Part shown: positions 5,926 to 25,580 of the stretch, piece by piece
Layout of the letters: the number at the start of each line of letters is the position of its first letter
Position numbering within the stretch: position 1 is the stretch's first letter
Assembly: GCA_018822805.1 (NCBI GenBank)
Contig: JAHJJU010000097.1
Location: 1-64,000 of the forward strand
Source: a bacterium
Lineage (GTDB): Bacteria; Campylobacterota; Campylobacteria; Campylobacterales; Sulfurovaceae
Reading direction: 5' to 3'
DNA length: 64,000 bases
Translations under genes and position numbers: made by a program
The notes under the pieces: model-generated
Database searches by the model: none
What the model was told of the DNA's origin: nothing
The model's input: the letters and a program-made list of their open reading frames with translations, nothing else

Positions 5926-7313
5926 GATTTCAACTCAAACAAATTCTAAAAGAACAGTCACTTACCTCGGTGTTTAAAACCTTTGGGTACTCAGCAGTGC
6001 TTAGCAGTGGACCATGGGTTATTTCGATGATCATCATTCTAGGTATTGGTCTAAGTAACATCTACCTCTCAACGGCCGGAGACTCCAAAGACATCATGCT
6101 AAAAGCCTCTGTGACCTATGTTTCAGCCTTAGCATTGAGCTCAATTTTTACAGGATTTCTACAACTCCCTTTTACCCGTTTTACGGCTGATAGAATCTAT
6201 GAAAAACGTGATTACCTCATTTTGCCCAATTTTTTAGGTACGTTGATAGTAACCATTACATTGGCATTTGCTATTGCCATGCCTTTGGGACTTTTTCTTT
6301 TCGATAGCCAAAGTAACCTCTTTGTTCTGCTCTATATTTCACTCTTTGTGATTCTCTCTTGTGTCTGGATGGCAAACATTTTAGCTGCAAGTCTTAAACT
6401 CTATAAACTGGTCATACTCTTCTATCTGATTGGGTATGCAAGCATTTATGGCTGTTCTATTCTTTTTAAAGAGTATGAGATTATTGGATTACTGCTCTCT
6501 TTTTTGATTGGAAACAGCATACTTTTTATGTTGCTTTTTTTGGGTATAGTCTACTACTACCCCTCATTTAATCCTAAAAACAAAACGTTTATCCGTTTTG
6601 ATATGTTTAAACAAAATTATGGAAAATTTTACTGGAAACTGGGTTGGTCAGGGATGTTCTACAACATCGCCATTTGGATTGATAAAGTGATCTTTTGGTA
6701 CACGCCCATTGTCGGGTACATGGTTATTGATAAACTGCATGCCTCTATGGTGTATGATTTTCCTATTTTTTTAGCCTACCTCTCTATTATTCCGGGGATG
6801 GCGATCTTTTTCTTTCGACTTGAAGTCGATTTTGCTTCAGCTTATGATAAGTTCTACCGAGCGATTGTAAAAAATGGTACTTTGAGTCAAATCAAAAAGT
6901 TCAAACAAGAGATGATTTTAGCCGTAAAACGCAGTACGCAAGAGATCCTGTTTGTACAAGGATTGTTTAACATTTTACTTTTTTTATCGGCTGAAACGCT
7001 CTTTGAACTCTTGAAGTTACCTAAACTCTATTTGCCTCTTTTTTATGTTGATGTTATCGGAGTTCAATTACAGTTGGGCTTCATGTCCGTGTTGGCATAT
7101 CTTTACTATTTAGACCGACAAAAAGAGGCACTGATCTACACCTTTTTGTTTGTTCTATTAAATATTGTACTCACGGGAATCAGTATTCAATTGGGTCCGT
7201 ACTTTTATGGCTATGGATTTTCCATTACCCTTTTAATCCTTTTCGTCGCCAGTATTCACACGCTCAATAACATTTTACAGGAGTTAGATTATGAAACTTT
7301 CATGTTGCAGTAA
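5913..7313 (+). CDS. pelG: PelG, polysaccharide transporter of the inner membrane
   Basis: A 466-residue polytopic membrane protein with about 12 hydrophobic segments and the PelG opening MAGIGFQLKQIL. It belongs to the PST/MOP flippase superfamily and is thought to move the Pel chain across the inner membrane with PelD, PelE and PelF. It overlaps the end of pelF by 13 bases and has a GAGGAG ribosome binding site. It also overlaps pelA. Length and N-terminus match PelG well. Confidence 0.95.
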   Translation: MAGIGFQLKQILKEQSLTSVFKTFGYSAVLSSGPWVISMIIILGIGLSNIYLSTAGDSKDIMLKASVTYVSALALSSIFTGFLQLPFTRFTADRIYEKRDYLILPNFLGTLIVTITLAFAIAMPLGLFLFDSQSNLFVLLYISLFVILSCVWMANILAASLKLYKLVILFYLIGYASIYGCSILFKEYEIIGLLLSFLIGNSILFMLLFLGIVYYYPSFNPKNKTFIRFDMFKQNYGKFYWKLGWSGMFYNIAIWIDKVIFWYTPIVGYMVIDKLHASMVYDFPIFLAYLSIIPGMAIFFFRLEVDFASAYDKFYRAIVKNGTLSQIKKFKQEMILAVKRSTQEILFVQGLFNILLFLSAETLFELLKLPKLYLPLFYVDVIGVQLQLGFMSVLAYLYYLDRQKEALIYTFLFVLLNIVLTGISIQLGPYFYGYGFSITLLILFVASIHTLNNILQELDYETFMLQ

Positions 7314-10035
7314 AATAGTTTTTCTATTTTCATTGCTCTTTTCAAGCGTCATGGCAGAGGAACGCTACGCTTTTATCTACAGCAACAACATCGACGATCA
7401 ATTTATTAACTTTTATGACAAAGTTGTGGTTGAAGCCGATGCCATAGACAACATTTATGCTCTAAGATACCCTAAAAAAATGGTGGCATATGTCAGTGTG
7501 GGTGAGATAGAACCGTGGCGAAAAACAAAAACCAAATATGATCCTTCATGGATTATTTCTGAAAATAAAACATGGAACTCACTGATTGCTGATTTACGAA
7601 AAGATGCTTATCAAAACTTTATTTTTGAGCGTATTGAGCAGCTTTATAGCAAAGGATATCGAAATTTTTTCTTAGATACCATGGATGCCTATCATGTTAC
7701 TGCCAAAGATAAAGAGCTCTTTGGACTGCAACAAAAAGCCTTAATTAAATTTATACGTACCCTACACAAAAAGTATCCTAAATCTAAAATCATTGTTAAT
7801 CGTGGCTTTGAACTGCTAGAAAAGATCCATAAAGATATCGATGCCATTGTTGCCGAGAGTCTCTTAAATCGTTACAATCATGACCAAAAAGCTTATGTTG
7901 AAGTACCAAAAGCTGACAGAGAGTGGCTCATTGCCAACTTTAACAGAGCAAAATCTTATAACTTAGATGTAATCTCCATAGAGTACAGCAATAAAAGTAC
8001 CAAAGAGCGTATGAGCATTGCAAAAAGAGTAAAAGAGCTAGGATTTATTGCTTACGTTACCGATGGTCTACTCCAAGAACAAGGGGAATGTGATCTCAAA
8101 CGTGTACGCAGGGATGTTTTAATTCTATTTAACCAATCCCTCTATAAAGATAAAAATGCTGCTTACTCCGATGTGCATCGTTTAGCCTCCATGCCTTTAG
8201 AGCATCTTGGTTATGTTCCTATTTTATACGACATTTCAACCAAAGATTTACCACAGAGAGTAGAAGATCGATACCATTCTGTCATTGTCTGGAGTAATGG
8301 AAAAACCAAAAATGATGAAAAACTTTACGCATGGACACAAAAACTCAAAGAGAAAAATATAAAAATACTCTTTCTTAACAGTTTGGTTTTCACTCCTTCA
8401 AAAGAGCGACTCTCCTATTTTGGACTGAAAGAAGAGGTGAATGAAAATGACTTTCTTAGTAAAACAACAGTCCACTATCATCAGCCCTATACCCAGTATG
8501 AGATACCTGCATCCATCAATTACGAAGAGCGTATCATCAAGGCTAAAGAAGCCCAGGCTGTTCTTTCTATTTCTTATGAAAATGGTCAAAACAGTACGCC
8601 CATTGCCATTACCTCTTGGGGTGGTTATGCCCTTAATAATTCACTTTTATATTCTATTGGAGATGAGATTTTTTGGAATGTTGATCCCTTCAAATTATTT
8701 AAAGATGCACTTAGCTTAGATACTATTCCTCTGCCTGACCCCACTACGGAAGCCGGTAGACGAATATTATTTGTACATGTCGATGGTGATGGATATGTAG
8801 AGCAGTCACGAACCAATAGAGAACAACTTGCCTCAGATACTTTGATAGAAGAGATTTATAAAAAATATCCCATTCCTCAAAGTGTCTCACTGATTCAAGG
8901 GGAAGTTGACAGCATTGGAATGTTTCCTCAACTGAGTCCACGCATGAAAGAGAGTGCCAAAGAGCTCTATAGAATTCCATGGATTGAACCGGCCAGCCAT
9001 ACCCTATCGCACCCCTTTTTTTGGAACAAAGTGACCAAACCTGAAAATGCCAAACCCGAAGTAGGGAAAAACTATCACTTGCCGATTCCCAACTACCACT
9101 TTTCATTAGACCAAGAGATTACAGGAAGCATTCGTTTTGCCCTCTCTTTGGCTCCGAAATCAAAACAGAAAGAGAAGGTAATCTTTTGGACAGGCGATTG
9201 TCTACCCACCAAAAAGATCTTGGGCTACATTGAACGCAAAAACATTTTAGCCATTAATGGAGGCGATACCAACATTCAAAAGAATGCCCCATGGTTGAGC
9301 CACATTGCCCCCTTTGGACTGCAACATGATGCGTATTGGCAGATCTACACAGCCCAACAAAATGAGAATGTCTTTACCCATGAGTGGACAGGCCCATTTT
9401 GGGGCTATCGTAATGCCATTGAGACCTTTGAGATGACTGAAGAACCACGAAGAGTTAAACCTATTAATATCTATTACCACTTCTATTCAGGTTCTAAATT
9501 GGCTTCACTTAAAGCACTAGATGAGGTCTATTCTTGGAGCATAAAACAGAAAACATCCAAACTCTATACCTCACAATACATTAAAAAAGTCAAAGATTTT
9601 TACGCCACATCCCTTGCTAAAGTAGCCGGTGGATATGAAGTACGAAACTCCGGTCATCTTCGTACCCTACGTGTAGATAAAGAAGTTTATGTCAATATGC
9701 AAAAAAGTCAAGGTGTTGCAGGATTTATTCATAATAAAGGTAGAACCTACATTACTTTAGATCAACAGACACAACATACCATTATTTTATCTGATCATAA
9801 ACCTTCCTTACCCTATCTTAAAGATGCCAATGGATGGGTAGAACGTGTTGAACAGCAGCAACATAAATATATTTTTACATTAAAAGCCAATATGCCTCTA
9901 AAAGCCAATTTCTATCTGCCGTCAAACTGTAACGTCATGGTAGAAAAAGGAATAAAACAGAAAAAAATGAACCATCGACTTTCACTGAAAAGCACGACTA
10001 AAAAAGGAAGCAACGTTGTATTTATCTGCCAATAA
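7291..10035 (+). CDS. pelA: PelA, periplasmic Pel hydrolase/deacetylase
   Basis: A 914-residue protein with a signal peptide (cleavage near VMAEE, about residue 23). The first 270 residues form a GH114-like hydrolase barrel (motifs MVAYVSVGEIEPW, YRNFFLDTMDAY and VAESLLNRYN, the last containing the likely catalytic Glu). The middle resembles the PelA reductase-like domain. From about residue 490 a carbohydrate esterase 4-like deacetylase has the metal-site elements FVHVDGDGY and SHTLSHPF (HxxxH). In Pseudomonas, PelA deacetylates and trims Pel in the periplasm. Unlike the pelABCDEFG order of Pseudomonas, pelA here follows pelG and precedes pelB. Confidence 0.94.
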   Translation: MKLSCCSKIVFLFSLLFSSVMAEERYAFIYSNNIDDQFINFYDKVVVEADAIDNIYALRYPKKMVAYVSVGEIEPWRKTKTKYDPSWIISENKTWNSLIADLRKDAYQNFIFERIEQLYSKGYRNFFLDTMDAYHVTAKDKELFGLQQKALIKFIRTLHKKYPKSKIIVNRGFELLEKIHKDIDAIVAESLLNRYNHDQKAYVEVPKADREWLIANFNRAKSYNLDVISIEYSNKSTKERMSIAKRVKELGFIAYVTDGLLQEQGECDLKRVRRDVLILFNQSLYKDKNAAYSDVHRLASMPLEHLGYVPILYDISTKDLPQRVEDRYHSVIVWSNGKTKNDEKLYAWTQKLKEKNIKILFLNSLVFTPSKERLSYFGLKEEVNENDFLSKTTVHYHQPYTQYEIPASINYEERIIKAKEAQAVLSISYENGQNSTPIAITSWGGYALNNSLLYSIGDEIFWNVDPFKLFKDALSLDTIPLPDPTTEAGRRILFVHVDGDGYVEQSRTNREQLASDTLIEEIYKKYPIPQSVSLIQGEVDSIGMFPQLSPRMKESAKELYRIPWIEPASHTLSHPFFWNKVTKPENAKPEVGKNYHLPIPNYHFSLDQEITGSIRFALSLAPKSKQKEKVIFWTGDCLPTKKILGYIERKNILAINGGDTNIQKNAPWLSHIAPFGLQHDAYWQIYTAQQNENVFTHEWTGPFWGYRNAIETFEMTEEPRRVKPINIYYHFYSGSKLASLKALDEVYSWSIKQKTSKLYTSQYIKKVKDFYATSLAKVAGGYEVRNSGHLRTLRVDKEVYVNMQKSQGVAGFIHNKGRTYITLDQQTQHTIILSDHKPSLPYLKDANGWVERVEQQQHKYIFTLKANMPLKANFYLPSNCNVMVEKGIKQKKMNHRLSLKSTTKKGSNVVFICQ

Positions 10036-13000
10036 TAACACGCCTAAAACCTCTATACTCTCACTTAAAGAGATTCTAGGAATTGTTATTGTCTTCTCGT
10101 TTGTACTTTACTTGCTCTTTCCAAAAGGAGACATTGAGAACATCATGATCGAAAGTCATGAAAACACCAACCTCTCCATCAACTACTTAGAGAGTATGTT
10201 ACTCTACTACCCGGACAACAGTAAACTGCAAATGAGTTTGGTTAAAAACTACCGTTTCCGAGGTGATCTTGAAAAAGCCATACAACTAAACAATGAACTC
10301 ATGGAAAAAGAATTGAGTCAAGAGCTTTTAGATCAAGTGCATAAATACAGATACCTTTTACTAAAAGACAGTTACTTTCAAGAGCCATCTAAAATAAAAC
10401 AAAAAACATTATTGGTCGAAGTACAACAAACCCTTTTAGATTACTTTAACCATCAACAACAGAACCAAGATTACTTTTTCTTTTTTTCAGAAGCGACACA
10501 AATGAACATTCCCAAATTGGAATACAGTGCACTTCAAGGACTTATGAACCAACGTAAAGATTTAAGAATCCACGAACTAGAAGAACAAGCATTTTATTTA
10601 GCCATCAGCCTAGAAAAAAAAGAAGATGCTTATGCCTATCTACAAAAACTATTGCAGTACAAAGAGCTCAATCCTAGAATCGCAGAAGATGCCCTCAATC
10701 TTCTAATGGAACATAAAGCGTATGAGCAAGTTGCCGACATCGCAACCAAGCTTTTTTTAACTGCCAAAAATAATAAAGATGAAATTCGATTTTTCAACAT
10801 TGCACTCTATGGATTATCACAAAACCCTAAAAATCAACACGATGCGATTCAAGATCTTATTCAACACTATCTAGCACGTCATGAACTGAAGTCTTACGAT
10901 ATTATTATTATCATCAACAGCTTTTTACAAGTGGGTGCTTTAGATGAAGCCAACAAGTTTGTTGAACAAACGTTTAAAACTTACCTCAAAGAGTTTAATG
11001 AAGCAGCCCTAGAACTTGCTATTAACAGTTTTGTCTTCAACAGTAAACTCCCTTTTGCACAAGAGCTTGTAGCCTTTACGTATGAGAAGTTCCCCACACA
11101 AAAATGGCTCGATAAAAAGATACAAATTGCCACATGGTTAGGAGATGTTGAAGAAGCCGTTGGCTCAAATATAGAAGGCTACCGAGTGTTTGGCGATGAT
11201 AAATATGAAACCTATCTGTTAGAGTCCGGTACCCTTGACACAGCTTATGAAATTTTAGGAGAAATCTACCAAAACAAAGTCGAAAGTGGTGCCTACCAAT
11301 TTGTAGAGAAATTGGCTGAATATTTTGAGTATATCGGCGAAATTCCAAAAGCAGAAACTTACTTTTTAAATCTCTATCAACGTATACAAAATGAGCCCAT
11401 ACAGAAACAAGCCATTCTATTTTCATATAAAAACAGTCACTTTGCACAGGGTATTGCTCTTTATGAAAACTATAAAAAGCATTATGGCATAGATAAATGG
11501 TTGCATGAACTCAGCATAAAAAAACTGATGGCACTCAAAGAGTTTAAAAAATCCGAACTTTATGCCCAAGCATTGGAACCGACAAAGGTCTACAATGCTA
11601 CAGCCCAAAAGCTTTTAGAAAAGCTTTATCTTCCTAATGATTCAGATTTTTACACCCAACTCATAGACCTCTCTTGGATGCATAAAAGCTACCCATATCT
11701 TTATAAAATTTTATGGAAATTAGAGAAACAAAAGAGCTTAAAACAGAGAGGTTATGAGAAGTTGGTTCAACTCGAAGATGCCATCAACAAAGGTAAACGC
11801 ATTGCTTACCTCTATGAAAATCTATGGGAAAAAACTAAAAACGACACTTACCTCTTTGCACTCTTCTACAAATATAGTGAAGATAAAAACTTTGATGCCT
11901 TGACGAAACTGATTGGCACACTTAACCCTACTATAAAAAAAGCTTTAGAAAAGAGTATTCAGTACCAAATACTTCTAGCCAACTACTACGCACAAACAAC
12001 CCAAATGAACAAAGCCCTAAGCACGTTTAAAAAAGCACTAAAATTGGATAAAAGCAACGCTACAACCCATCAAGCTTATTTATGGTTTTTACTCGACAAT
12101 CATAATACCAAAGCCCTATTAACAGAAGTAAATCTTCTTAAAAAAAGCCCCCAACTACAAAGTCAAGTCGGTTTTCCTTCAGTGGTGGCTGCTATGGAAT
12201 TGCAACAGAGTGACCTTGCCCTGCGTTGGCTAAAACCTCTTTTAAAATTCGATAAAAAGAACATTGAGTACCAAGTACTGTATGCCGATATTTTAGAACT
12301 TCAAGACCGAAGCAATGGTGCTAAGAAAATTCGTATGCATCTTTTTAAAGTTTTGAACAGCTTAATTAAACAATCGCCACAACGCTTAAAAGAAAAAGAT
12401 TTTGCACGCGTTTACCTGCGATTGGTTACCCTCTATGTTACCCCTTATGGTAAAAAAAGCATCTACTTTAAACAGTTACAATCGCTCTTTAAAGAGGAAG
12501 ATTATATGCAGATGAAAATCGGTTGGCATACCATGAACAACAGTGAAGACAAAGTTAAATATTTGGCTGATAAACATCACATAAATATTCCTTGGCTAAA
12601 CCTTTACCTAGCGATAAGCCGAGGTGATGACACTACAAAACAACAGCTCCTGCAAGAGCATAAAAATATTTTACCATTCAGAGACAGGGTTATGGCTGCA
12701 TTGGATATCGGCGATAGAGCTACTGCCTACACCCTTGCTTTTAAAGGATTGGAAGAGAACAGCCGAGATACAGACCTCTATAGTATCTATTGGAACATGA
12801 TTAAAGAAGATGATTTTAAGGGTCAGATTCGTTCAAAATATACCCATTTATCTGATAACCTTACTGCTATTGAGAGTGAAGTTTACCACCGATGGCATCT
12901 CTTTAAAGGAATAGAGTCTAAACTCTCCTTTACACAGTACCGTTACCAACAGAGACCGACAACTACCGATAATACACTTGCTTTAACATTAAAAAATAGT

Positions 13001-13654
13001 CATACAAAATTCTTATGGGATTTCACACTGGAACAACATAATTCCGACCATGATTTTCTATCAGCATCATTAGAAACCCAATACAGCCTTAGCGATCTTA
13101 CCCTAGGTTTGAATGCCCACTATCAAACCAAAACCCTACAAACACCTGAGCTTCAAACCAATGCCATGATGGACTCCTTTGAAGTAAGCTTACAAAAACC
13201 ATTAAGTCATCGTATTCAAGTAGGAGCATCCTATAAAGAGAACAGCTATAGCTATCAAAACAAAACAAAATTGGGTGATTCAAAACACCTCCAATTCAAT
13301 GGAAATTACATTCTTCGTGCTGCTTATCCTGACATCAATATCAACAGTTATCTCAATGTTAACCGATACGATTTCCTAGTCGAAAACCATCTACTGCCTC
13401 AAGACTTCTGCGAACTGGGTTCACAACTGAGCATTGGAACCAATGCAAAAGAGAGTTTCCATCGAAGTTGGCGACCGTTTGGTAGCATTGGTCTGGCTGT
13501 AAACAATCACCAAAATATTGGTAGTTCCCTCTCTTTTGGGGTAGCCGGTATGGTCAATCGTGAAGATGCATTAAGTCTACAATTCGACTACAGCAATGGT
13601 ATTGGTGCCATCTCCAATCCTGTTTATGGTGCTTCAATGAATTATCGGTTCTAA
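10016..13654 (+). CDS. pelB: PelB, TPR scaffold and outer-membrane export barrel
   Basis: A 1212-residue protein, close to Pseudomonas PelB (about 1190). A single N-terminal membrane helix (about residues 16-33) is followed by a long periplasmic TPR superhelix (about 45-900) and a C-terminal beta-barrel of alternating strands (about 950-1212) ending in aromatic NYRF. PelB is the outer-membrane exit pore, and its TPRs contact PelA. The start is TTG at 10016, overlapping pelA by 20 bases, with AAAAGGAAG upstream; no ATG fits as well. The stop codon overlaps the left arm of a long palindrome (13652-13698). Confidence 0.93.
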   Translation: MYLSANNNTPKTSILSLKEILGIVIVFSFVLYLLFPKGDIENIMIESHENTNLSINYLESMLLYYPDNSKLQMSLVKNYRFRGDLEKAIQLNNELMEKELSQELLDQVHKYRYLLLKDSYFQEPSKIKQKTLLVEVQQTLLDYFNHQQQNQDYFFFFSEATQMNIPKLEYSALQGLMNQRKDLRIHELEEQAFYLAISLEKKEDAYAYLQKLLQYKELNPRIAEDALNLLMEHKAYEQVADIATKLFLTAKNNKDEIRFFNIALYGLSQNPKNQHDAIQDLIQHYLARHELKSYDIIIIINSFLQVGALDEANKFVEQTFKTYLKEFNEAALELAINSFVFNSKLPFAQELVAFTYEKFPTQKWLDKKIQIATWLGDVEEAVGSNIEGYRVFGDDKYETYLLESGTLDTAYEILGEIYQNKVESGAYQFVEKLAEYFEYIGEIPKAETYFLNLYQRIQNEPIQKQAILFSYKNSHFAQGIALYENYKKHYGIDKWLHELSIKKLMALKEFKKSELYAQALEPTKVYNATAQKLLEKLYLPNDSDFYTQLIDLSWMHKSYPYLYKILWKLEKQKSLKQRGYEKLVQLEDAINKGKRIAYLYENLWEKTKNDTYLFALFYKYSEDKNFDALTKLIGTLNPTIKKALEKSIQYQILLANYYAQTTQMNKALSTFKKALKLDKSNATTHQAYLWFLLDNHNTKALLTEVNLLKKSPQLQSQVGFPSVVAAMELQQSDLALRWLKPLLKFDKKNIEYQVLYADILELQDRSNGAKKIRMHLFKVLNSLIKQSPQRLKEKDFARVYLRLVTLYVTPYGKKSIYFKQLQSLFKEEDYMQMKIGWHTMNNSEDKVKYLADKHHINIPWLNLYLAISRGDDTTKQQLLQEHKNILPFRDRVMAALDIGDRATAYTLAFKGLEENSRDTDLYSIYWNMIKEDDFKGQIRSKYTHLSDNLTAIESEVYHRWHLFKGIESKLSFTQYRYQQRPTTTDNTLALTLKNSHTKFLWDFTLEQHNSDHDFLSASLETQYSLSDLTLGLNAHYQTKTLQTPELQTNAMMDSFEVSLQKPLSHRIQVGASYKENSYSYQNKTKLGDSKHLQFNGNYILRAAYPDININSYLNVNRYDFLVENHLLPQDFCELGSQLSIGTNAKESFHRSWRPFGSIGLAVNNHQNIGSSLSFGVAGMVNREDALSLQFDYSNGIGAISNPVYGASMNYRF

Positions 13655-13731: not shown

Positions 13732-13749
13732 GATATAAAGGAAAACTTG

Positions 13750-14475
13750 ATGTTTATAAAAAAAATTTTATTGCCAATTCTACTTATAATCGGTCTTCTA
13801 TCTTTGACTCATGCCGATGAGCCCATACCCACCCAAAAGCAAAAAGAGAAAAAAATCTATCCAATGGGTCAAAAACTCTTTGAGAAAAAATGCAAAACTG
13901 ATATAAATTTCAGTACCTATAGTGAAATCAATGCTCTAAAAGCAAGTCTGATTAATGATAAACTCTGTACCACACTCAAAGAGCAACAGCTTCAAGCTGT
14001 TACCCTCTACCTATGGGAAGTTAAAAGAGTTAATCTTATGAGTAAAAATAATAAACGTATAGAAGTAGCAAAAGATGAAAAATGCCCTGTCTGTGGTATG
14101 TTTACCTACAAGTACCCCAAATGGGCTACTCAAATATTTTACAAAGAGGGTGAACATGAACAGCACTACTCTTTTGATGGGGTTAAAGATTTAATGAAAT
14201 TCTACTTCGATCCAATGGCATGGGGAAACCATGGAAACGCCAAAAAAGAACATATTTCCAAAATTTTAGTCACCGACTACTACACGCAAAAAGCCATTGA
14301 TGGAACAGAAGCATTCTATGTTGTGGGTTCAGATATTTTAGGACCTATGGGAAATGAGTTGATACCCTTTGCACAACAAAGTGATGCCAAAACCTTTTTA
14401 GACGACCACAGTGGAAAAACCATCGTTACTTTTGATAAAATAACCAAAGAAGAAGTCTATAAATTAGATCAATAA
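13750..14475 (+). CDS. NosL-family copper-binding protein, secreted
   Basis: About 241 residues with a signal peptide (cleavage near LTHAD). The first half is family-poor. The second half is a NosL domain with the signature CPVCGMFTYKYPKWATQIFY (about residues 116-135), whose Cys and Met residues bind Cu(I) in NosL. NosL delivers copper to nitrous oxide reductase, but no nos structural genes are in this window. Together with the next two genes it may form a periplasmic copper-handling unit. I chose ATG 13750 over the TTG one codon upstream because of spacing to AAAGG. Confidence 0.8.
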   Translation: MFIKKILLPILLIIGLLSLTHADEPIPTQKQKEKKIYPMGQKLFEKKCKTDINFSTYSEINALKASLINDKLCTTLKEQQLQAVTLYLWEVKRVNLMSKNNKRIEVAKDEKCPVCGMFTYKYPKWATQIFYKEGEHEQHYSFDGVKDLMKFYFDPMAWGNHGNAKKEHISKILVTDYYTQKAIDGTEAFYVVGSDILGPMGNELIPFAQQSDAKTFLDDHSGKTIVTFDKITKEEVYKLDQ

Positions 14476-14496: not shown

Positions 14497-14811
14497 ATGC
14501 ATCAAAAAAGTTATACCCTCTTTTATATTCTCATCGGACTTGTTAGCATTTTCATAATCCAACTCTTCTATTTACAACAAACAAAAAGCATGACTCCGAC
14601 CCAACAGCTAAAAAAAGAGTACTTTGTCACCATAGCAGGTCTACCTGACCTTGCTTTGGTTACTGAAACCTCATCGGTTCGACACCGAACACTCAGTGAT
14701 TTATTTTCACTCTACCGAGATGATGCCAACTTAAGAGAGTATTTCCCCTCAACTTTTGCCTACGCACACTCACCTATTTTAAACAAGGATTCCTCCATTG
14801 AAAAACATTAA
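14497..14811 (+). CDS. Small single-pass membrane protein in the nosL cluster
   Basis: A 104-residue protein with one hydrophobic N-terminal segment (about residues 7-26) and a periplasmic tail. I do not recognise a family. It has a strong AGAGGAG ribosome binding site, starts 21 bases after nosL and overlaps the following permease gene by 14 bases, so the three genes are almost certainly cotranscribed. A role as accessory subunit of the permease is an inference from position only. Confidence 0.7.
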   Translation: MHQKSYTLFYILIGLVSIFIIQLFYLQQTKSMTPTQQLKKEYFVTIAGLPDLALVTETSSVRHRTLSDLFSLYRDDANLREYFPSTFAYAHSPILNKDSSIEKH

Positions 14812-15982
14812 CCTCTATTTGGTTGAATTCGCCATCAATGCCCTACTAAGAGCCAAAAGTAAAAATATTTTTATTCTGGTTGTTTTCACTCTTTTAACTT
14901 CCCTACTGACAGCTGTTTTTCTAATAACAGGTTCTATAAAACATGAACTCCAATCGACCGTTCAGGCTCTACCTCAAATAACCGTACAGAAAATCAAAGC
15001 AGGACGGCACTACGATATTGATACGATAATTGCAGATGATATCATCAACATTGCCGGAGTCAGTGAAGCAACGCCTAGAGTATGGGGGTATTACTACTTT
15101 GAAAATGCCGGGGTAAACTTTTCACTGCTTGGCATAGACCAATATGAACAGCAGTACAAAGAGAGTCTTAGTAAAGTGGTTGAAACGTACGATTTTGACA
15201 CTCCAAACAGCGAAGCTCAAATGATTGTAGGTCAAGGGGTTCAAAAGATTATGCAAGAGAACTACTATAAGGACTATTTTAACTTTATCAAACCCGACGG
15301 AAGTTTCAAAAAAGTAACGCTAGCAGGAGTTTTTGATGCCCAGACGCAATTAGAATCCAACGACATGATTCTTATGTCAAAAGAGAACGTACGAGAGATC
15401 TTCGGTATCTCCGAAAACAGAGCCACCGATATTGTGGTTAAAGTTCCCAATCCAGAAGAGGTAAGCACCATTGCTTCTAAAATCAAAATGATGTACCCCG
15501 ATACCCGAGTGATAAGCTCAAACGATTTACAAGTAAGTTATCAAAATATCTTTGACTATAAATCAGGTGTTTTTTTAGCCCTCTTTACCATTGCTCTCTT
15601 TACATTTTTTATGATTATCTATGACAAAACAAGTGGATTAAGTTCTGAAGAGAAACGAGAAATAGGGATACTAAAAGCGATTGGATGGAGAGTAGATGAT
15701 ATACTCAAAGAAAAATTTTATGAAGCCTTCATCGTCTCATTTTTAGCATATACCTTAGGCGTCATTTTAGCTTTTGGGTTTGTCTACCTTTTTCAAGCTC
15801 CACTTTTACGCGAAATCTTTGTGGGTTATTCACAGTTAAAGACCTCGTTTGAATTGCCCTTTATTTTTGACCTTCAAATGCTCTTTTTGGTCTTCTTTTT
15901 GTCGGTTCCCATTTACATTGCTGCAACCATTATCCCCTCATGGAGGGCTGCAACATTAGAAGTAGATGAAATTATACGTTAA
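14798..15982 (+). CDS. FtsX/MacB-type ABC transporter permease
   Basis: A 394-residue protein with the FtsX/LolC-like layout: an N-terminal membrane helix (about 20-42), a large periplasmic domain (about 45-250) and three C-terminal membrane helices. The conserved cytoplasmic loop EEKREIGILKAIGWRVDDIL precedes the second of these. Such permeases need a LolD-like ATPase, normally encoded next to them, but none is here: the gene is followed after 24 bases by a convergent gene. The start is TTG 14798 with AAGGA upstream, inside the previous gene. It may help deliver copper or a lipoprotein together with NosL; the substrate is unknown. Confidence 0.82.
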   Translation: MKNINLYLVEFAINALLRAKSKNIFILVVFTLLTSLLTAVFLITGSIKHELQSTVQALPQITVQKIKAGRHYDIDTIIADDIINIAGVSEATPRVWGYYYFENAGVNFSLLGIDQYEQQYKESLSKVVETYDFDTPNSEAQMIVGQGVQKIMQENYYKDYFNFIKPDGSFKKVTLAGVFDAQTQLESNDMILMSKENVREIFGISENRATDIVVKVPNPEEVSTIASKIKMMYPDTRVISSNDLQVSYQNIFDYKSGVFLALFTIALFTFFMIIYDKTSGLSSEEKREIGILKAIGWRVDDILKEKFYEAFIVSFLAYTLGVILAFGFVYLFQAPLLREIFVGYSQLKTSFELPFIFDLQMLFLVFFLSVPIYIAATIIPSWRAATLEVDEIIR

Positions 15983-16860: not shown

Positions 16861-17817
16861 ATGGCAAAAGGTAAAAAGGTAACGGTTATCGGGACTGGTA
16901 ATTTTGGTTCAACAGTAGCATTTATATTGGCAATGAATGGGGTATGTCATAATGTTGTACTACGAGGTAGAAACTATGATATAGCAAAAGGTAAAGCCCT
17001 AGATATGTCTCAAGCTGCTAATGCAGCAAGACAACATACTATTGTAAAAGCTGCAAAAGGTCCGGAAGATATGGCTGATTCAGATATAGTAGTCATCACA
17101 GCAGGAGCACCAAGAACACCGGGTATGCATCGTGATGATTTATTATTAAAAAATGCTGAGATTGTAAAAAGATATTCTGAAGAGATTAAAGAGTATGCTC
17201 CAAATGCAATTGTAGTTGTTGTCAGTAATCCACTTGATGTTATGACCTATGTTGCTTTAAAAATAACCGGTTTTCCAAGAGAGAGAGTTCTAGGAATGGC
17301 AGGTATTCTTGATGCTGCTAGAATGGCTCATTTTATCTATGAAAAACTTGAAGTAGGTGCCGGACAAATTAGAGCAACGGTTATGGGTGGACATGGTGAT
17401 ACGATGGTTCCACTTAAAAAGTTTACTACGGTTGCAGGTATTCCGATTAGTGACCTATTAACGGCTGAAGAGATTGATGACATTGTTGAAAAAACTAAAA
17501 ATGGTGGTGCTGAAATTGTTCAACTATTGGGTAGTGGCTCAGCCTACTATGCTCCTGCAAAATCAACAGCAATTATGGTTGAGTCTATGTTAAAAGACAC
17601 CAATCAAGTCCACTCATGTGCTGTTATGCTCAAAGATGAATTTGATCACAGTGACATTGTTAGTGGCGTTCCGGTTATGATAGGTGGCAATGGTGCTGAA
17701 AAAATCATGAAAAACTTCAAGCTTGATGACTGTCAAAAAGAGAGATTTAGAAAATCTGTTAAATCTGTTCAAGAGATGGTCGATAAGCTCTATGAATTAA
17801 AATTCTTTGACAACTAA
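16861..17817 (+). CDS. mdh: Malate dehydrogenase, LDH-like type (paralogue 1, possibly NADP-preferring)
   Basis: A 318-residue LDH/MDH-fold enzyme converting malate and oxaloacetate. It has the nucleotide motif VIGTGNFGS, the mobile loop PRTPGMHRDDL with MDH-type arginines, NPLDVMTY, and the active-site His in GGHGDTMVPL. The conserved Asp at the end of strand beta-2, which selects NAD, is replaced: the segment reads VVLRGRNYD, whereas the two paralogues below read LLYDI and VLFDI. Gly plus Arg there is typical of NADP-dependent relatives, so this copy may use NADP(H). It has its own strong promoter and a downstream hairpin. Confidence 0.92.
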   Translation: MAKGKKVTVIGTGNFGSTVAFILAMNGVCHNVVLRGRNYDIAKGKALDMSQAANAARQHTIVKAAKGPEDMADSDIVVITAGAPRTPGMHRDDLLLKNAEIVKRYSEEIKEYAPNAIVVVVSNPLDVMTYVALKITGFPRERVLGMAGILDAARMAHFIYEKLEVGAGQIRATVMGGHGDTMVPLKKFTTVAGIPISDLLTAEEIDDIVEKTKNGGAEIVQLLGSGSAYYAPAKSTAIMVESMLKDTNQVHSCAVMLKDEFDHSDIVSGVPVMIGGNGAEKIMKNFKLDDCQKERFRKSVKSVQEMVDKLYELKFFDN

Positions 17818-19788: not shown

Positions 19789-21726
19789 ATGGCTTTAACA
19801 ATAATCAGTTTAATGAAACAAGTTCCACTACCATCCGAGATGCGAATGGGTGATGATGGTTTAATGGACAGAACCAAAGCAAAATCAATTATCAATGTTG
19901 ATTGTGGCTACGCCCTTGAAGCCGGTCTTCAAATGAAAAATGACAACCCCGATGCCAAACTTATCGTCTGTTCAATGGGACCTCCTTCTTTTGAAGAGTC
20001 TCTTAAAAAAGCCCTCTCTTTGGGGTATGATGAGGCCTATCTCTTAAGTGACCGACGACTCGGTGGATCAGACACCTATGCGACGGGTTTGGCTATCTCA
20101 ACCATGCTCAAACACTTAGGCTATGGCAAAGGTCTTAACGAAGACTTTATCATCGTAGCAGGTCGTCAAACTTCTGATGGAGATACGGCACATGTTCCTT
20201 CACAAGTGGCTGAAAACATGCACATACCACAAGCAACTTTTATTGAAGTGGCAAACTTGGTTGATGGCAAGATTGAAGCAAAAAGAATCATCGAAGGTGG
20301 GTACCAAATGATGAAACTGCCTCTTCCTTGTGCCCTGTCCTTTACCCCAACAGGTATTAGTCCAAGACGTGCAACCTTATCGGGTGCTGTTAAAGCACGT
20401 AATACTGAAATCACGGTCTTTAATATTGATGATGTCAACCTCAGTGATGAAAATATTGGACTCAGTGGAAGCCCTACCATTGTTGCAAAAGTAGCCAATA
20501 TTAAGAGTGAGCGAGCTCCAATAAAAATGTCTGAAGGACACAATGAATCGGAGTTGGTATCAAGTTTAATTAAAAATCTCAAATCCGGTAAAAACACCAT
20601 TGAAGTCAAAGAGAAAAAAGAGAAAAAAGAGAAAAAAAGACCTGAAGGGTATGAAGAAGTTGACTTTAGAAATGGAGCATCAGGCATCTTAACATGGGCT
20701 GAAGTGGTCAAAGGTCAAATTTCAAGACCATCATTAGAGCTTTTAACACCTGCAAGAGAGCTAGCCAACCAACTTGAAGAGGGAACCAAAGTTGTCACTC
20801 TACTTATTGGTAAAGATATTGGGCATTTGGCACAAGAGTTAATTGCTCATGGTGCTGATGAAGTGGTTGTTGTTGATGATGAGCGATTAGAAGAATATAG
20901 AATTTTACCGTTTGCTTCTATTTTTGAACTGGTCATTAACGATAAAAATCCTGAAATAGCCCTCTTTGCAGCCACCACGGCTGGTCGGGAATTGGCTCCT
21001 AGAATTGGGGTCAAAGTAGATGGTGGAGTAACAGCCGACTGTACAGCTTTAGAGATTGGTGAACACATTGACCGAAAAAATAAAAAGATTTTTGCACCTA
21101 TTTTAGAATCACGACGACCAACCTATGGGGAGTCTAAACTGGCAACCATTTTAGGCTTTGTTTGTCCACAAATTTCGACAGCACGGGCAGGAACATTTGA
21201 AGTACCAACACCTGATGCCAATCGAGAAGGCATCATTACTCACTTTAAACCAGAGCTTAGTGAAGAAAATTTTGTATCAGAAATCATTGAAACCGTTATT
21301 GGAGAGGGTGGGTTACAAAATCTCTTTGAAGCCGATGTGATTGTCTCAGGTGGAAGAGGAACGGTCAGTGATGACATGCAATTGGTTAAAGAGTTGGCAA
21401 CAGCACTCAATGAACAAGGCATTAACGCCGAGTGGGCAAGTAGCCGTCCTGTGGTTGATGAGGGTGTGGCTGAATATGCACGACAAATTGGACAAACGGG
21501 GAAAACGGTACGACCAAAAGTTTATGTTGCTATTGGTATCTCAGGTGCTGTTCAACATATTGCCGGAATGAAAGAGGCTGAAACCATTGTTGCCATTAAC
21601 TCCAATGCCAAAGAGAGCATTTTTGCCAATGCTGATTTTGGAATTGTAGGTGAGTATCAAGATGTGGTACCTGAACTGATAGAAAAAGTGAAAGGTGGAT
21701 TTACCTTTGGACTTGAGGTAAAATAG
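19789..21726 (+). CDS. Fused electron transfer flavoprotein, EtfB-EtfA single chain
   Basis: A 645-residue protein joining EtfB (about residues 1-260) and EtfA (about 290-645) through a Lys/Glu-rich linker (KEKKEKKEKKRPEG). ETFs are normally two genes. The beta part has VCSMGPPSFEESLKKAL, LLSDRRLGGSDTYATG and GRQTSDGDTAHV, which resemble NADH-binding, bifurcating-type EtfB rather than the AMP-binding mitochondrial type. The alpha part has CPQISTARAGTF and the C-terminal FAD site (GGRGTVSDD, SSRPVVDEG, GISGAVQH). It should receive electrons from a dehydrogenase or NADH and pass them to the adjacent ETF-QO. The ribosome binding site AAGGAGG is strong. Confidence 0.93.
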   Translation: MALTIISLMKQVPLPSEMRMGDDGLMDRTKAKSIINVDCGYALEAGLQMKNDNPDAKLIVCSMGPPSFEESLKKALSLGYDEAYLLSDRRLGGSDTYATGLAISTMLKHLGYGKGLNEDFIIVAGRQTSDGDTAHVPSQVAENMHIPQATFIEVANLVDGKIEAKRIIEGGYQMMKLPLPCALSFTPTGISPRRATLSGAVKARNTEITVFNIDDVNLSDENIGLSGSPTIVAKVANIKSERAPIKMSEGHNESELVSSLIKNLKSGKNTIEVKEKKEKKEKKRPEGYEEVDFRNGASGILTWAEVVKGQISRPSLELLTPARELANQLEEGTKVVTLLIGKDIGHLAQELIAHGADEVVVVDDERLEEYRILPFASIFELVINDKNPEIALFAATTAGRELAPRIGVKVDGGVTADCTALEIGEHIDRKNKKIFAPILESRRPTYGESKLATILGFVCPQISTARAGTFEVPTPDANREGIITHFKPELSEENFVSEIIETVIGEGGLQNLFEADVIVSGGRGTVSDDMQLVKELATALNEQGINAEWASSRPVVDEGVAEYARQIGQTGKTVRPKVYVAIGISGAVQHIAGMKEAETIVAINSNAKESIFANADFGIVGEYQDVVPELIEKVKGGFTFGLEVK

Positions 21727-21891: not shown

Positions 21892-22836
21892 ATGGTCGGT
21901 AGAAAAGTAGCAATTGTAGGAGCAGGTGCCGTGGGTGCCAGTGCAGCATATGCGTTAGCATTAAGTGGAACATGTCATGAGATCTTGCTTTATGATATCG
22001 TTCCGGAGGTCGCCATAGGAAAAGCAATAGACATTGCACAATCAACCAACTACTCTCCTAGAGGTACGGTGGTTCGAGCAGCAGTCAAACCTGAAGATTT
22101 AAAAGATTGTGATGTTGTCGTGATTACAGCAGGAGTACCACGAAGAAAAGAGATGACCCGTGCCGATTTATTGAACATTAATGCCGGTATCGTAAAAGAG
22201 GTTTCAGGATACATTAAAACCTATTCTCCTAATGCTGTAATTCTCTGTGTCTCTAATCCTTTGGATGTAATGACCTATGTGGTACACCAAGTAACGGGTT
22301 GGGAAAGAAACCGAATTATTGGAATGGGTGGAGCTTTAGACAGCTCACGGATGGCATATCAAATTTACCAAAAAACAGGATTTGGTGCAGCACAAGTCCG
22401 AGCCATGGTGATTGGTGATCACGGTGAAAACATGATTCCTTATCCGGAAATCACCAATGTTGGTGGGGTACCTCTTTCACAAATTATCTCAAAAGAAGAC
22501 ATGGATGACATTGTTGCCAAAACCAAAGATGGTGGTGCAGAAATTGTCAAATATCTGAAAACTTCTGCCTTTTATGCTCCGGGTCGTGCCATTTCAGCCA
22601 TGGTTGAATCGATTTTGAGTGATGAAGAAAAAGTCATCCCAAGTTGTGCGATGCTCGATGGTGAATATGGCTACAGCGATGTCACGGTAGGTGTACCTTG
22701 TGTTATCGGTGCCAATGGTATCAGAAAAATCATTGAACTTGAATTTGATGAAGCAACCAAAGCAAAATTTGCAAAATCAGTTGCATCCATCAAGGAAAAT
22801 ATTGCCATCTTAAGAGATGGTGGATTTTTTGATTAA
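21892..22836 (+). CDS. Malate dehydrogenase-family enzyme (paralogue 2)
   Basis: A 314-residue LDH/MDH-fold protein with the nucleotide motif IVGAGAVGASAAYAL and an Asp in LLYDIVPEV that predicts NAD specificity. It has NPLDVMTYVV and the catalytic His in GDHGENMIPY. The mobile substrate loop reads PRRKEMTRADL: the MDH arginines are kept, but the usual PGM is replaced. It is closer to paralogue 3 than to paralogue 1. A malate/oxaloacetate role is most likely; another 2-hydroxy acid cannot be excluded. It lies between ETF and mdh3, has AAAGGAG upstream, and is followed by a good terminator. Confidence 0.88.
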   Translation: MVGRKVAIVGAGAVGASAAYALALSGTCHEILLYDIVPEVAIGKAIDIAQSTNYSPRGTVVRAAVKPEDLKDCDVVVITAGVPRRKEMTRADLLNINAGIVKEVSGYIKTYSPNAVILCVSNPLDVMTYVVHQVTGWERNRIIGMGGALDSSRMAYQIYQKTGFGAAQVRAMVIGDHGENMIPYPEITNVGGVPLSQIISKEDMDDIVAKTKDGGAEIVKYLKTSAFYAPGRAISAMVESILSDEEKVIPSCAMLDGEYGYSDVTVGVPCVIGANGIRKIIELEFDEATKAKFAKSVASIKENIAILRDGGFFD

Positions 22837-23034: not shown

Positions 23035-23056
23035 AAGTACCAGACCATAATAAATG
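23035..23056. repeat. Half copy of the 13.65-kb palindrome
   Basis: AAGTACCAGACC followed by ATAATAAATG matches the left arm of the palindrome at 13652-13698 at 21 of 22 positions; no right arm follows. It lies in the leader of mdh paralogue 3 and supplies an upstream ATG (23054) in frame with it. Confidence 0.75.
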
Positions 23057-23083
23057 GCATATTTTAATTTTAAAGGCATAATT

Positions 23084-24028
23084 ATGAGAGAACGAAAAGT
23101 AGGAATTATTGGTGCCGGTTCAGTAGGGGCAACAGCAGCGTACAGTTTAAGTATGATGGGAACTTGTAAAGAGATTGTTCTTTTTGACATTGTCAAAGGA
23201 ATTGCGCAAGGTAAAGCCATAGATATAGAACAATCAACCCATTATGCACCACAAAGAACCATCATAACAGCTGCTCAAACTCCTGCTGATATCAAAGACT
23301 GTGACATAGTAGTGATTACAGCCGGTGTACCACGTACAGGGGACATGACACGAGCAGACCTTTTGATGATAAATGCAAAAATTATGAAATTGGTTGTAGA
23401 AGATGTAAAAATCTACTCTCCAAATACTGTTATTATCTGTGTTTCAAATCCTTTGGATGTCATGACGTATCTCATTCATAAACTAACGGGCTGGGAAAGC
23501 AACCGAATCATCGGTATGGCCGGAGCCTTAGATGGCTCACGCATGGCGTATCAGATTTATAAAAAACTGGGTTATGGTGCCGGTCAAATAGGTACACTGG
23601 TCATTGGTGACCATGGGCAAAACATGATACCCCTGCCACAACAAGTTAAAGTGGGTTCTGTTCCAACCACCGATGTTTTAAGCCGAGAAGATATGGAAGA
23701 GATTATTGAACGTACCAAAAATGGTGGAGCTGAGATTGTAAAACATTTGGGAACATCAAGCTATTACGGGCCAGGACGTGCTGTTGCCTTTATGGTTGAA
23801 GCGATTTTAAATGACACACAAACGGTGGTTGCTTCATCCGTACTGCTGAATGGTGAATATGGTTACTCCGATGTTTGTGTTGGTGTGCCTGTGGTACTTG
23901 GGCGTCATGGTGTCGAGAAAATTATTGAAATCTCTTTAGACAAAGAGACCCAAACAAAATTTAAAAAATCGGTTGAGAGTATTCAAGAAGGTATTCATAT
24001 TCTTAACAACAATGGATTATTTGAGTAG
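23084..24028 (+). CDS. Malate dehydrogenase-family enzyme (paralogue 3)
   Basis: About 314 residues, starting MRERKVGIIGAGSVGA. It is an LDH/MDH-fold enzyme with Asp in VLFDIVKG (NAD-type), the substrate loop PRTGDMTRADL, NPLDVMTYLI and the active-site His in GDHGQNMIPL. An ATG 30 bases upstream comes from a dispersed repeat, whereas 23084 has AAAGG at proper distance, so I chose 23084. Its similarity to paralogue 2 along the whole length points to an in-place duplication. It is followed by a hairpin and then the fumarase genes, in keeping with a malate-fumarate pathway. Confidence 0.88.
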   Translation: MRERKVGIIGAGSVGATAAYSLSMMGTCKEIVLFDIVKGIAQGKAIDIEQSTHYAPQRTIITAAQTPADIKDCDIVVITAGVPRTGDMTRADLLMINAKIMKLVVEDVKIYSPNTVIICVSNPLDVMTYLIHKLTGWESNRIIGMAGALDGSRMAYQIYKKLGYGAGQIGTLVIGDHGQNMIPLPQQVKVGSVPTTDVLSREDMEEIIERTKNGGAEIVKHLGTSSYYGPGRAVAFMVEAILNDTQTVVASSVLLNGEYGYSDVCVGVPVVLGRHGVEKIIEISLDKETQTKFKKSVESIQEGIHILNNNGLFE

Positions 24029-24161: not shown

Positions 24162-25013
24162 ATGAGAGAAATTGAATTTGACGTTGTCGTCAAAGCCGTT
24201 AAAGACATGATCATGCATTGTGGTACCGATTTACCACAAGATACCTATGATGCACTGGAAACAGCCATGGAAAATGAAAAATCACCCGTGAGTAAAGAGG
24301 TGATTCGCCAAATACTTGAAAATGCCAACATTGCCAAAGATGAAAAAAGACCCCTCTGCCAAGATACAGGTTTGGCCGTATTTTTTGTCAATGTGGGTGA
24401 AGAGGTACGTATTAACGGTGGTCTTTTACGAGATGCCATTAACAAAGGAACAGCACAAGGTTATGAAGAGGGTTACTTAAGAGCTTCTACCTGTGAACCA
24501 TTTAGCCGTGCCAACCTCAAAGATACCGTAGGGTACAATCTTCCTGCTATTATTCACTTTGACATTGTGGCTGGTGATAAAATCGACATCGAATACGCTG
24601 CCAAAGGTGGTGGATCGGAAAATGTATCGCGTGCAAGAGTCTTCCCACCTGCTGCCGGTAAAGATGGAATTGTTGCCTATGTAAAAGAAGTGATCTCTGA
24701 TGCAGGTGGAAACCCTTGTCCTCCGATAACGGTGGGTGTAGGAATTGGTGGAACCTTTGAAAAAGCATGTATCTCATCGAAACATGCCCTCTTTAGAAAC
24801 TTAGAAACCAAAAACCCTGACCCGGAGATGGCTGAACTAGAAGAGCGTATGTTAACCGAGATCAATAACTTGGGTATCGGTGCCATGGGTATGGGTGGAA
24901 CCAAAACAGCGTTGGCTGTTCATATTGAGTCAAATCCTTGTCACATTGCGTCACTTCCTGTTTCGGTTAACGTTCAGTGTCACAGTTCACGACATACACA
25001 CATTACCATATAA
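24162..25013 (+). CDS. Class I fumarate hydratase, alpha subunit
   Basis: A 283-residue protein of the TtdA/FumA N-terminal family, an oxygen-sensitive 4Fe-4S hydratase converting fumarate and malate. Cluster-ligand regions are visible in RPLCQDTGLAVFF (about residues 64-76), STCEPF and GGNPCPPITVGVG. The beta subunit follows after 9 bases. Two-subunit class I fumarases are usual in anaerobes and microaerophiles with reductive or branched TCA cycles. L(+)-tartrate dehydratase is the main alternative, but the malate dehydrogenase neighbours favour fumarase. AGGAG precedes the start. Confidence 0.9.
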   Translation: MREIEFDVVVKAVKDMIMHCGTDLPQDTYDALETAMENEKSPVSKEVIRQILENANIAKDEKRPLCQDTGLAVFFVNVGEEVRINGGLLRDAINKGTAQGYEEGYLRASTCEPFSRANLKDTVGYNLPAIIHFDIVAGDKIDIEYAAKGGGSENVSRARVFPPAAGKDGIVAYVKEVISDAGGNPCPPITVGVGIGGTFEKACISSKHALFRNLETKNPDPEMAELEERMLTEINNLGIGAMGMGGTKTALAVHIESNPCHIASLPVSVNVQCHSSRHTHITI

Positions 25014-25022
25014 GGAAAAGCC

Positions 25023-25580
25023 ATGGCAACCTATACATTAACAACCCCACTCACTTCTGAAGACACTAAAAAGTTGGTAGCCGGTGACACGGTACTCCTA
25101 AACGGAACCATCTATACAGCAAGAGATGCAGCCCATAAAAAATTGGTCGACCTTATTGAAGCTGGGGAAGAGCTTCCTTTTGATTTAGAGGGTTCAATCA
25201 TCTATTTTGTTGGACCTACCCCTCCTAAACCGGGTGACCCTATCGGAAGTGCCGGACCTACCACCTCCTACCGAATGGATACCTATTCTCCTACCATGCT
25301 CAAAAATGGTTCAAAAGGTATGATAGGCAAAGGAAACCGAAACCAAGCTGTAAAAGATGCTTGTGTGGAATACGATGGAATCTATTTTGGTGCCACAGGT
25401 GGTGCAGGTGCACTGCTTGGTAAACAGATTCGTTCTGCCGAAGTCATCGCCTACCCAGAGTTAGGACCTGAGGCTGTACGAAAAATTACGGTTGAAAACT
25501 TTCCTGTAACCGTTGTAAACGACACCAAAGGTAATGACCTTTATCAGATGGGTCGTGAACAGTATGAGGTGAAAAGCTAA
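25023..25580 (+). CDS. Class I fumarate hydratase, beta subunit
   Basis: A 185-residue protein matching the C-terminal domain of class I fumarase (FumA C-terminus/TtdB). It has the signature PTPPKPGDPIGSAGPTTSYRMD (residues about 60-81, abbreviated family motif PxPxGxxxGSAGPTT) and GKGNRN. It forms the catalytic heterodimer or tetramer with the alpha subunit and supplies part of the substrate site. The gene is translationally close to alpha (AAGGAAAAGCC before ATG). The first of three covarying hairpins lies just after its stop. Confidence 0.9.
   Translation: MATYTLTTPLTSEDTKKLVAGDTVLLNGTIYTARDAAHKKLVDLIEAGEELPFDLEGSIIYFVGPTPPKPGDPIGSAGPTTSYRMDTYSPTMLKNGSKGMIGKGNRNQAVKDACVEYDGIYFGATGGAGALLGKQIRSAEVIAYPELGPEAVRKITVENFPVTVVNDTKGNDLYQMGREQYEVKS

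Follow-up and report, generated by a model that had tools for sequence, protein, structure and literature searches.

What does an ETF do when its two subunits form a single chain, its gene stands in a TCA operon, and its classical electron donor is missing? The question is raised by a gene of a Sulfurovaceae member (phylum Campylobacterota), located in the 64,000-nucleotide stretch of contig JAHJJU010000097.1 that was analyzed here and is hereafter called the window. The initial annotation had described EtfB and EtfA as joined by a Lys/Glu linker, and this was borne out: the gene is a single uninterrupted ORF (Table 1), and the same single chain, at 58–87% identity, was found in independent genomes. 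An alignment of the fused relatives showed that the flanking halves are conserved and that the linker, which reads NTIEVKEKKEKKEKKRPE around residues 267–286, is variable. An assembly or frameshift artefact was thus ruled out as the source of the fusion. The host genome (2.79 Mb, 99.8% complete) encodes this ETF as its only one. In one relative (locus L058, G031:C323), the EtfBA frame is broken at residue 93/94, which reflects either a pseudogene or a sequencing error. An AlphaFold model of EtfBA, computed from 19 close homologues, was poor (mean pLDDT of 55.6), and no claim made here rests on it.

Table 1. Features of the etfBA locus and of the surrounding TCA operon (positions in the window; residue numbers refer to the encoded protein).
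Feature	Position	Strand	Characteristics and basis
MDH1, operon-native malate dehydrogenase	16861..17817	+	Canonical NAD Asp replaced (LRGRN); sequence, operon comparison
ETF-QO, mitochondrial type, 553 aa	18113..19774	+	FAD, quinone-binding, and one 4Fe-4S domain; PF21162, PF05187; 2gmh 365 bits
Fused EtfBA ORF	19789-21726	+	Single uninterrupted ORF, 645 aa; ETF domain x2 + ETF_alpha
EtfB half, residues 1-266	19789..20586	+	PF01012; top PDB match CarD 6fah_B 162 bits vs AMP-type 1efp_B 44 bits
NAD-site motif RRLGG, residues 89-93	20053..20067	+	Counterpart of RXFXG; motif defined in PMC9232219
Beta-FAD motif DGDTAHV, residues 130-136	20176..20196	+	Discriminating Gly131; PMC9232219, PMC12630350
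SPT anchor of the EtfB arm, residues 228-230	20470..20478	+	PMC9232219
Linker, Lys/Glu-rich, residues 267-296	20587..20676	+	Length and sequence vary among aligned linkers of relatives
EtfA half, residues 297-645, with alpha-FAD domain and stop codon	20677..21726	+	PF01012 + PF00766; top PDB 5ol2_A 217 bits, 6fah_A 210 bits
8-residue insertion KNKKIFAP, residues 430-437	21076..21099	+	EtfA hairpin, directly before the beta-FAD Arg; alignment, family-wide
RPTYGE, residues 443-448	21115..21132	+	Arg443 aligns with the beta-FAD N5-contacting Arg of RPXFGG; PMC10734219
MDH2, NAD-type malate dehydrogenase	21892..22836	+	Third gene of etfQO-etfBA-mdh; NF004863; LLYDI Asp, MDH-type Arg
MDH3, NAD-type malate dehydrogenase	23054..24028	+	Also in ETF-negative TCA operons; operon comparison, sequence
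Fumarase alpha (24162-25013) and beta (25023-25580)	24162..25580	+	Downstream end of the TCA operon

The EtfB–EtfA fusion is conserved at about 25 loci in Campylobacterota and Bacteroidales. Its direct relatives come from MAGs of Sulfurovum, Sulfurimonas, and other Campylobacterota, and relatives at about 70% identity were found in Bacteroidales MAGs, including Paludibacter. The fused gene was detected in 11 of the 34 genomes of the window's genus and in one genome of the same order. An order-wide sample of Bacteroidales contained it in three of 295 genomes (70–73% identity); the other Bacteroidales matches listed, which show 34–40% identity and a stop codon between the halves, are thus ordinary split genes. 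This patchy distribution indicates that the fused ETF is dispensable for the reductive TCA (rTCA) cycle and, together with the spread over two phyla, suggests horizontal transfer of the fused gene. Within the part of the open literature that was covered, we found no earlier description of a fused Etf, and nothing on an ETF-based ferredoxin source or on ETF bifurcation in Campylobacterota, Sulfurimonas, or Sulfurovum. A fusion as such recurs in Rhodococcus sp. WAY2, in which a plasmid (NZ_CP046573.1; L045:2477-4288) encodes, beside a rubredoxin, an ETF-like "FAD-binding protein" of about 603 aa that resembles EtfBA in its single EtfB–EtfA chain and in its DGATAQVGP and SPT motifs. However, this protein has about 25% identity to EtfBA, its alpha-FAD motifs are degraded, and it forms a distant branch that grouped weakly with LctBC; the two fusions are probably independent. 

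From SMGPP, SDTYAT, and DGDTA segments in its beta part, the protein had been likened to NADH-binding rather than AMP-binding ETFs. All three segments are present in the EtfB half (residues 62–66, within GGSDTYAT at 92–99, and 130–134, respectively), and both phylogeny and structure matches agree with the assignment. The trees were built on a small custom set of ETF references that differs from the published five-group set, and the group names follow later open papers. In the combined tree, the fused members formed one clade (support of 100/100), the AMP ETFs split off at 100/100, and the fused clade was placed among known bifurcating ETFs, as sister to CarDE of Acetobacterium woodii (6fah) and Bcd-EtfAB of Clostridioides difficile (5ol2) (84/89). 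When the longest branches were left out, the EtfA half fell inside Group 2 (97/99) and the EtfB half was separated from the AMP-type proteins (95/94), with no finer resolution. CarDE and Bcd-EtfAB were also the closest solved sequences for both halves: after CarD (Table 1), the EtfB half matched C. difficile (117 bits) and A. fermentans (115 bits), with AMP-type EtfB at 58 bits or less, and the EtfA half matched C. difficile EtfA and CarE at more than twice the score of mitochondrial EtfA (97 bits). By these comparisons, the fused clade is separate from the AMP-binding ETFs and lies either within or next to "Group 2", whose members bind two FADs and oxidise NADH. At the residue level, a Gly at position 123 of A. 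fermentans EtfB separates beta-FAD ETFs from AMP ETFs, in which this residue is bulky (PMC12630350), and its counterpart, Gly131, is invariant in 19 members of the fused family. EtfBA is thus, as judged from its sequence, very probably a two-FAD, NADH-oxidising ETF.

A canonical ETF of fatty-acid oxidation would be expected to look otherwise, as EtfBA does not show the EtfB signature of the AMP type and no acyl-CoA dehydrogenase donors were found in the genome. The initial annotation had reported no acyl-CoA dehydrogenase nearby; this extends to the whole genome (PF00441, PF02770) and none was found in four other Campylobacterota ETF holders, so that the classical ETF donor is missing. Its absence is lineage-specific, since most Bacteroidales holders possess acyl-CoA dehydrogenases. 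EtfBA might still act as a conventional ETF if another dehydrogenase, for example a GlcD/Ldh-type FAD-dependent 2-hydroxyacid dehydrogenase, reduced the alpha-FAD and ETF-QO delivered the electrons to menaquinone, the beta site being redox-inactive. The ETF-QO is of the conventional type, the genome encodes a GlcD-type flavoenzyme from the same family as the Etf partner in Ldh-EtfAB, and a canonical ETF of Fusobacterium is fed by a D-lactate dehydrogenase (PMC12630350). However, 55 out of 60 relatives carry GlcD-type genes, whether an ETF is present or absent, and none lies in the cassette, and the GlcD-type dehydrogenase was rejected as a specific donor. Moreover, the beta-FAD residues, notably Gly131, are unlike those of AMP-type ETFs and the protein is placed outside the AMP clades. 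We consider a conventional role very improbable.

The partner of EtfBA is encoded 14 nt upstream. The two parts of this ETF-QO had been equated with FixC and FixX, and the reaction described as FixABCX-like. By domain, the first statement is correct, as the ETFQO_UQ-bd and Fer4_ETF_QO profiles were matched in one chain (107 and 120 bits, respectively, far above the cut-off). By subfamily, it is not: the protein scored 365 bits against pig ETF-QO (2gmh) versus 107 bits against Thermotoga FixC, its identity is 40% to Legionella ETF-QO versus 24–28% to FixC, and the quinone-binding profile was matched weakly by rhizobial and E. coli FixC. Its cluster cysteines (498/522/525/528) correspond to one 4Fe-4S cluster, in contrast to the two described for FixX. 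The second statement holds as an analogy. In FixABCX/EtfABCX of Azotobacter, Thermotoga (7koe), and rhizobia, a Group 2 ETF gene also adjoins that of a membrane flavoprotein:quinone oxidoreductase that contains an iron-sulfur domain, and electron transfer from NADH to quinone and ferredoxin has been proposed, but these systems are made of four separate subunits rather than two chains. Thermotoga and rhizobial Fix formed a separate branch (98/94) with which the fused clade did not group. On the basis of this tree and of the partner, a one-cluster ETF-QO of the mitochondrial type instead of FixC plus FixX, membership in FixABCX was rejected. The type of ETF-QO, its quinone-binding and 4Fe-4S domains, and the alpha-FAD motifs retained in the EtfA half (SR, QIGQTGKTV, SGAVQH, and AIN) are those of mitochondrial and aerobic ETF plus ETF-QO (ETFA/ETFB, 1efp; 2gmh), from which the pair differs in that EtfBA is not of the AMP type and the genome is devoid of acyl-CoA dehydrogenases. 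Electrons very probably reach the quinone pool via ETF-QO, and the NADH-to-quinone part of the reaction is likely. In Nitrosophilus labii, ETF alpha and ETF-QO are reported to be more abundant during N2O respiration (PMC11539149).

The residues around the beta-FAD were compared with those of characterized ETFs, in which DGDTAQVGP forms the beta-FAD site, RXFXG the NAD site, and SPT the arm anchor (PMC9232219), and in which bifurcation requires the Arg of RPXFGG, located beside the beta-FAD N5 (PMC10734219). The SPT and TADCT features are kept in EtfBA and Arg443 (in RPTYGES) is invariant. Deviations at RXFXG, QVGP, and FGGN are common to all fused members: the first motif reads RRLGG or RKLGG (Phe to Leu), the second has become DGDTAHVPS, in which DGDTA and V are kept, Q is replaced by H or Y and GP by PS, and next to Arg443, FGG is changed to YGE and FGGN to YGES. 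In addition, all fused members that were examined carry the insertion at residues 430–437, in a hairpin that leads into Arg443, and none of the reference sequences has it. Most, though not all, of the published positions are thus kept in EtfBA. It has beta-FAD, Arg, SPT, and TADCT features in common with CarDE and Bcd-EtfAB, but is unlike them in its fused B–A chain, its ETF-QO partner, the lack of an acyl-CoA partner and of a ferredoxin-like domain, its RRLGG, HVPS, and YGES motifs, and its hairpin insertion.

In C. difficile, the counterpart hairpin partly shields the beta-FAD (PMC5691135), and the enlarged EtfA hairpin over the beta-FAD, together with the changed motifs, could block ferredoxin. 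The Etf of C. propionicum, which carries two FADs, apparently does not bifurcate (PMC5861303), and an insertion region has been invoked to explain why it does not reduce ferredoxin (PMC9232219). In relatives, changes of the SPT or Arg residues abolished or nearly abolished bifurcation and left NADH-dye activity partly or fully intact (PMC9232219, PMC10734219). These observations bear on a reading in which EtfBA would be a non-bifurcating NADH:menaquinone oxidoreductase with two FADs, accepting a hydride from NADH and passing both electrons on via the alpha-FAD and ETF-QO. It would then serve as an outlet for NADH from the malate dehydrogenase of the cassette in a cell in which NuoF was not found in the genome and complex I is thus without its ordinary NADH entry, as also described for Nautilia (PMC2628731). 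The insertion and the substitutions at the hairpin, which occur throughout the family, the precedent of C. propionicum, the absence of NuoF, and the link to an NAD-type malate dehydrogenase favor this reading, as does the acryloyl-CoA reductase AcrA profile, which ranks among the top NCBIfam matches of the EtfA half, at a score far under its cut-off. However, Arg443 and SPT, both critical for bifurcation, are invariant here, and a ferredoxin-dependent OOR shares one operon with the ETF. We regard a purely non-bifurcating enzyme as unlikely. Bifurcation by EtfBA has an about even chance, and is not put above this because of the shared deviations, the hairpin insertion, and the apparently non-bifurcating two-FAD Etf of C. 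propionicum.

The genomic context was also informative. The proposed connection with the rTCA cycle turned out stronger than first noted, as relatives place the gene pair in the TCA operon and once beside a ferredoxin-dependent OOR. Members of the genus that lack the ETF have the operon mdh1-mdh3-fumA-fumB; its form in other families is idh-mdh1-fumAB, once preceded by oor genes. ETF-positive genomes carry mdh1-[etfQO-etfBA-mdh2]-fumAB, with mdh3 retained in the window. A three-gene cassette, etfQO-etfBA-mdh, is thus inserted between mdh and fumAB of the TCA operon. MDH2 is linked to etfBA at nearly all Campylobacterota loci; the three-gene cassette stands by itself, apart from the TCA operon, in two genomes (G016 and G046), and a Sulfurovum contig (L003) carries fumC-etfQO-etfBA-mdh2-sucC-sucD-oorD-oorA-oorB (Pfam-confirmed). 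It follows from these operon comparisons that the ETF module travels with an NAD-type malate dehydrogenase and lands in TCA operons. This link is strong but not absolute, since G033 (L065) and G002 (L073) have mdh2 within or close to the TCA operon but yielded no ETF pair, owing either to a clean loss of etfQO-etfBA or to a separate arrival of mdh2. Bacteroidales holders have the ETF without TCA linkage. The NAD-specific Asp is lost in MDH1 of the genus (LRGRN) and kept in MDH2 (LYDI), in MDH3 (LFDI), and in MDH1 of other families (LRDRN), which suggests that MDH1 of the genus may prefer NADP.

Upstream of the operon, the window contains a pel-type exopolysaccharide operon (4345-13654), which encodes a PelF-like glycosyltransferase (DUF3492), PelG, a GH114 protein (PelA-like), and PelB (TPR and beta-barrel), followed by genes for a NosL copper-chaperone-like protein (13747-14475) and an FtsX-like permease (14798-15982). 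A similar NosL is encoded near the etf cassette at another locus (L006), on the opposite strand.

The presence of ATP-citrate lyase in the genome supports rTCA autotrophy of the host. In the mechanism that we propose, NADH would reduce the beta-FAD, presumably bound between EtfB and the first EtfA domain. The swinging domain of EtfA would carry one electron, on its alpha-FAD, to ETF-QO and thereby to the menaquinone pool, and the other electron, of low potential, would reduce a soluble ferredoxin or flavodoxin. Reduced ferredoxin would then feed the 2-oxoglutarate and pyruvate:ferredoxin oxidoreductases of the rTCA cycle and, in some hosts, nitrogenase, and the NAD-type malate dehydrogenase of the cassette would connect the NADH pool with the cycle. 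With potentials of -320 mV for NADH, -74 mV for menaquinone, and about -450 mV for ferredoxin (PMC10734219), the two acceptors average -262 mV, so that the bifurcating reaction would be downhill. Coupling to ferredoxin or flavodoxin, in one direction or the other, is somewhat favored, and a net direction towards ferredoxin has slightly less than an even chance. The same grade, a little short of an equal chance, is given to EtfBA plus ETF-QO forming a membrane-linked NADH:menaquinone and ferredoxin/flavodoxin oxidoreductase. In its favor stand the trees and the retained residues, the missing acyl-CoA dehydrogenase and NuoF, ATP-citrate lyase, the cassette in the TCA operon, the pattern of nifH in the genus, and the downhill sum; the changed motifs and the hairpin insertion, the single cluster of ETF-QO, the patchy distribution, the ETF-positive genomes without nifH, and the Bacteroidales holders count against it.

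Because the potentials are near balance, the reverse reaction is conceivable. Confurcation would combine reduced ferredoxin, supplied by reverse complex I or a hydrogenase, with menaquinol from sulfide oxidation to produce NADH for biosynthesis and for malate dehydrogenase operating in the reductive direction. Ldh-EtfAB works both ways and is faster in confurcation (PMC9232219), and a lithotroph without NuoF needs a source of NADH. On the other hand, the potential of menaquinol (-74 mV) makes it a weak co-donor, and the Bacteroidales holders are probably heterotrophs with a surplus of NADH. We consider confurcation improbable.

The host genome also contains nifH. In the genus, all four nifH-positive genomes are ETF-positive, compared with 11 of 34 genomes overall (Fisher p of 0.007, uncorrected for relatedness). 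Seven ETF-positive genomes of the genus have no nifH, some of them at 93–96% completeness, and nitrogen fixation was thus rejected as the sole role of the ETF.

In its complete form, the bifurcation proposal is that a horizontally spread, single-chain bifurcating ETF works with a mitochondrial-type ETF-QO from an rTCA operon of Campylobacterota and provides NADH-derived reduced ferredoxin for the fixation of CO2 (and N2), driven by the reduction of menaquinone; taken as a whole, it is tentative and on the unlikely side. The cassette nevertheless represents a compact two-protein candidate source of ferredoxin in one rTCA lineage, directly testable in vitro. If EtfBA does not bifurcate, natural two-FAD ETFs that fail to do so would have a second example, for which the hairpin insertion is the obvious structural candidate. 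If it does, this would show that the high-potential branch can be formed by an ETF-QO of the mitochondrial type and that EtfB and EtfA function when joined in one chain, and a convenient single-chain bifurcase would be at hand. Were the single-chain bifurcating reading true, it would answer, for these lineages, how rTCA autotrophs reduce ferredoxin.
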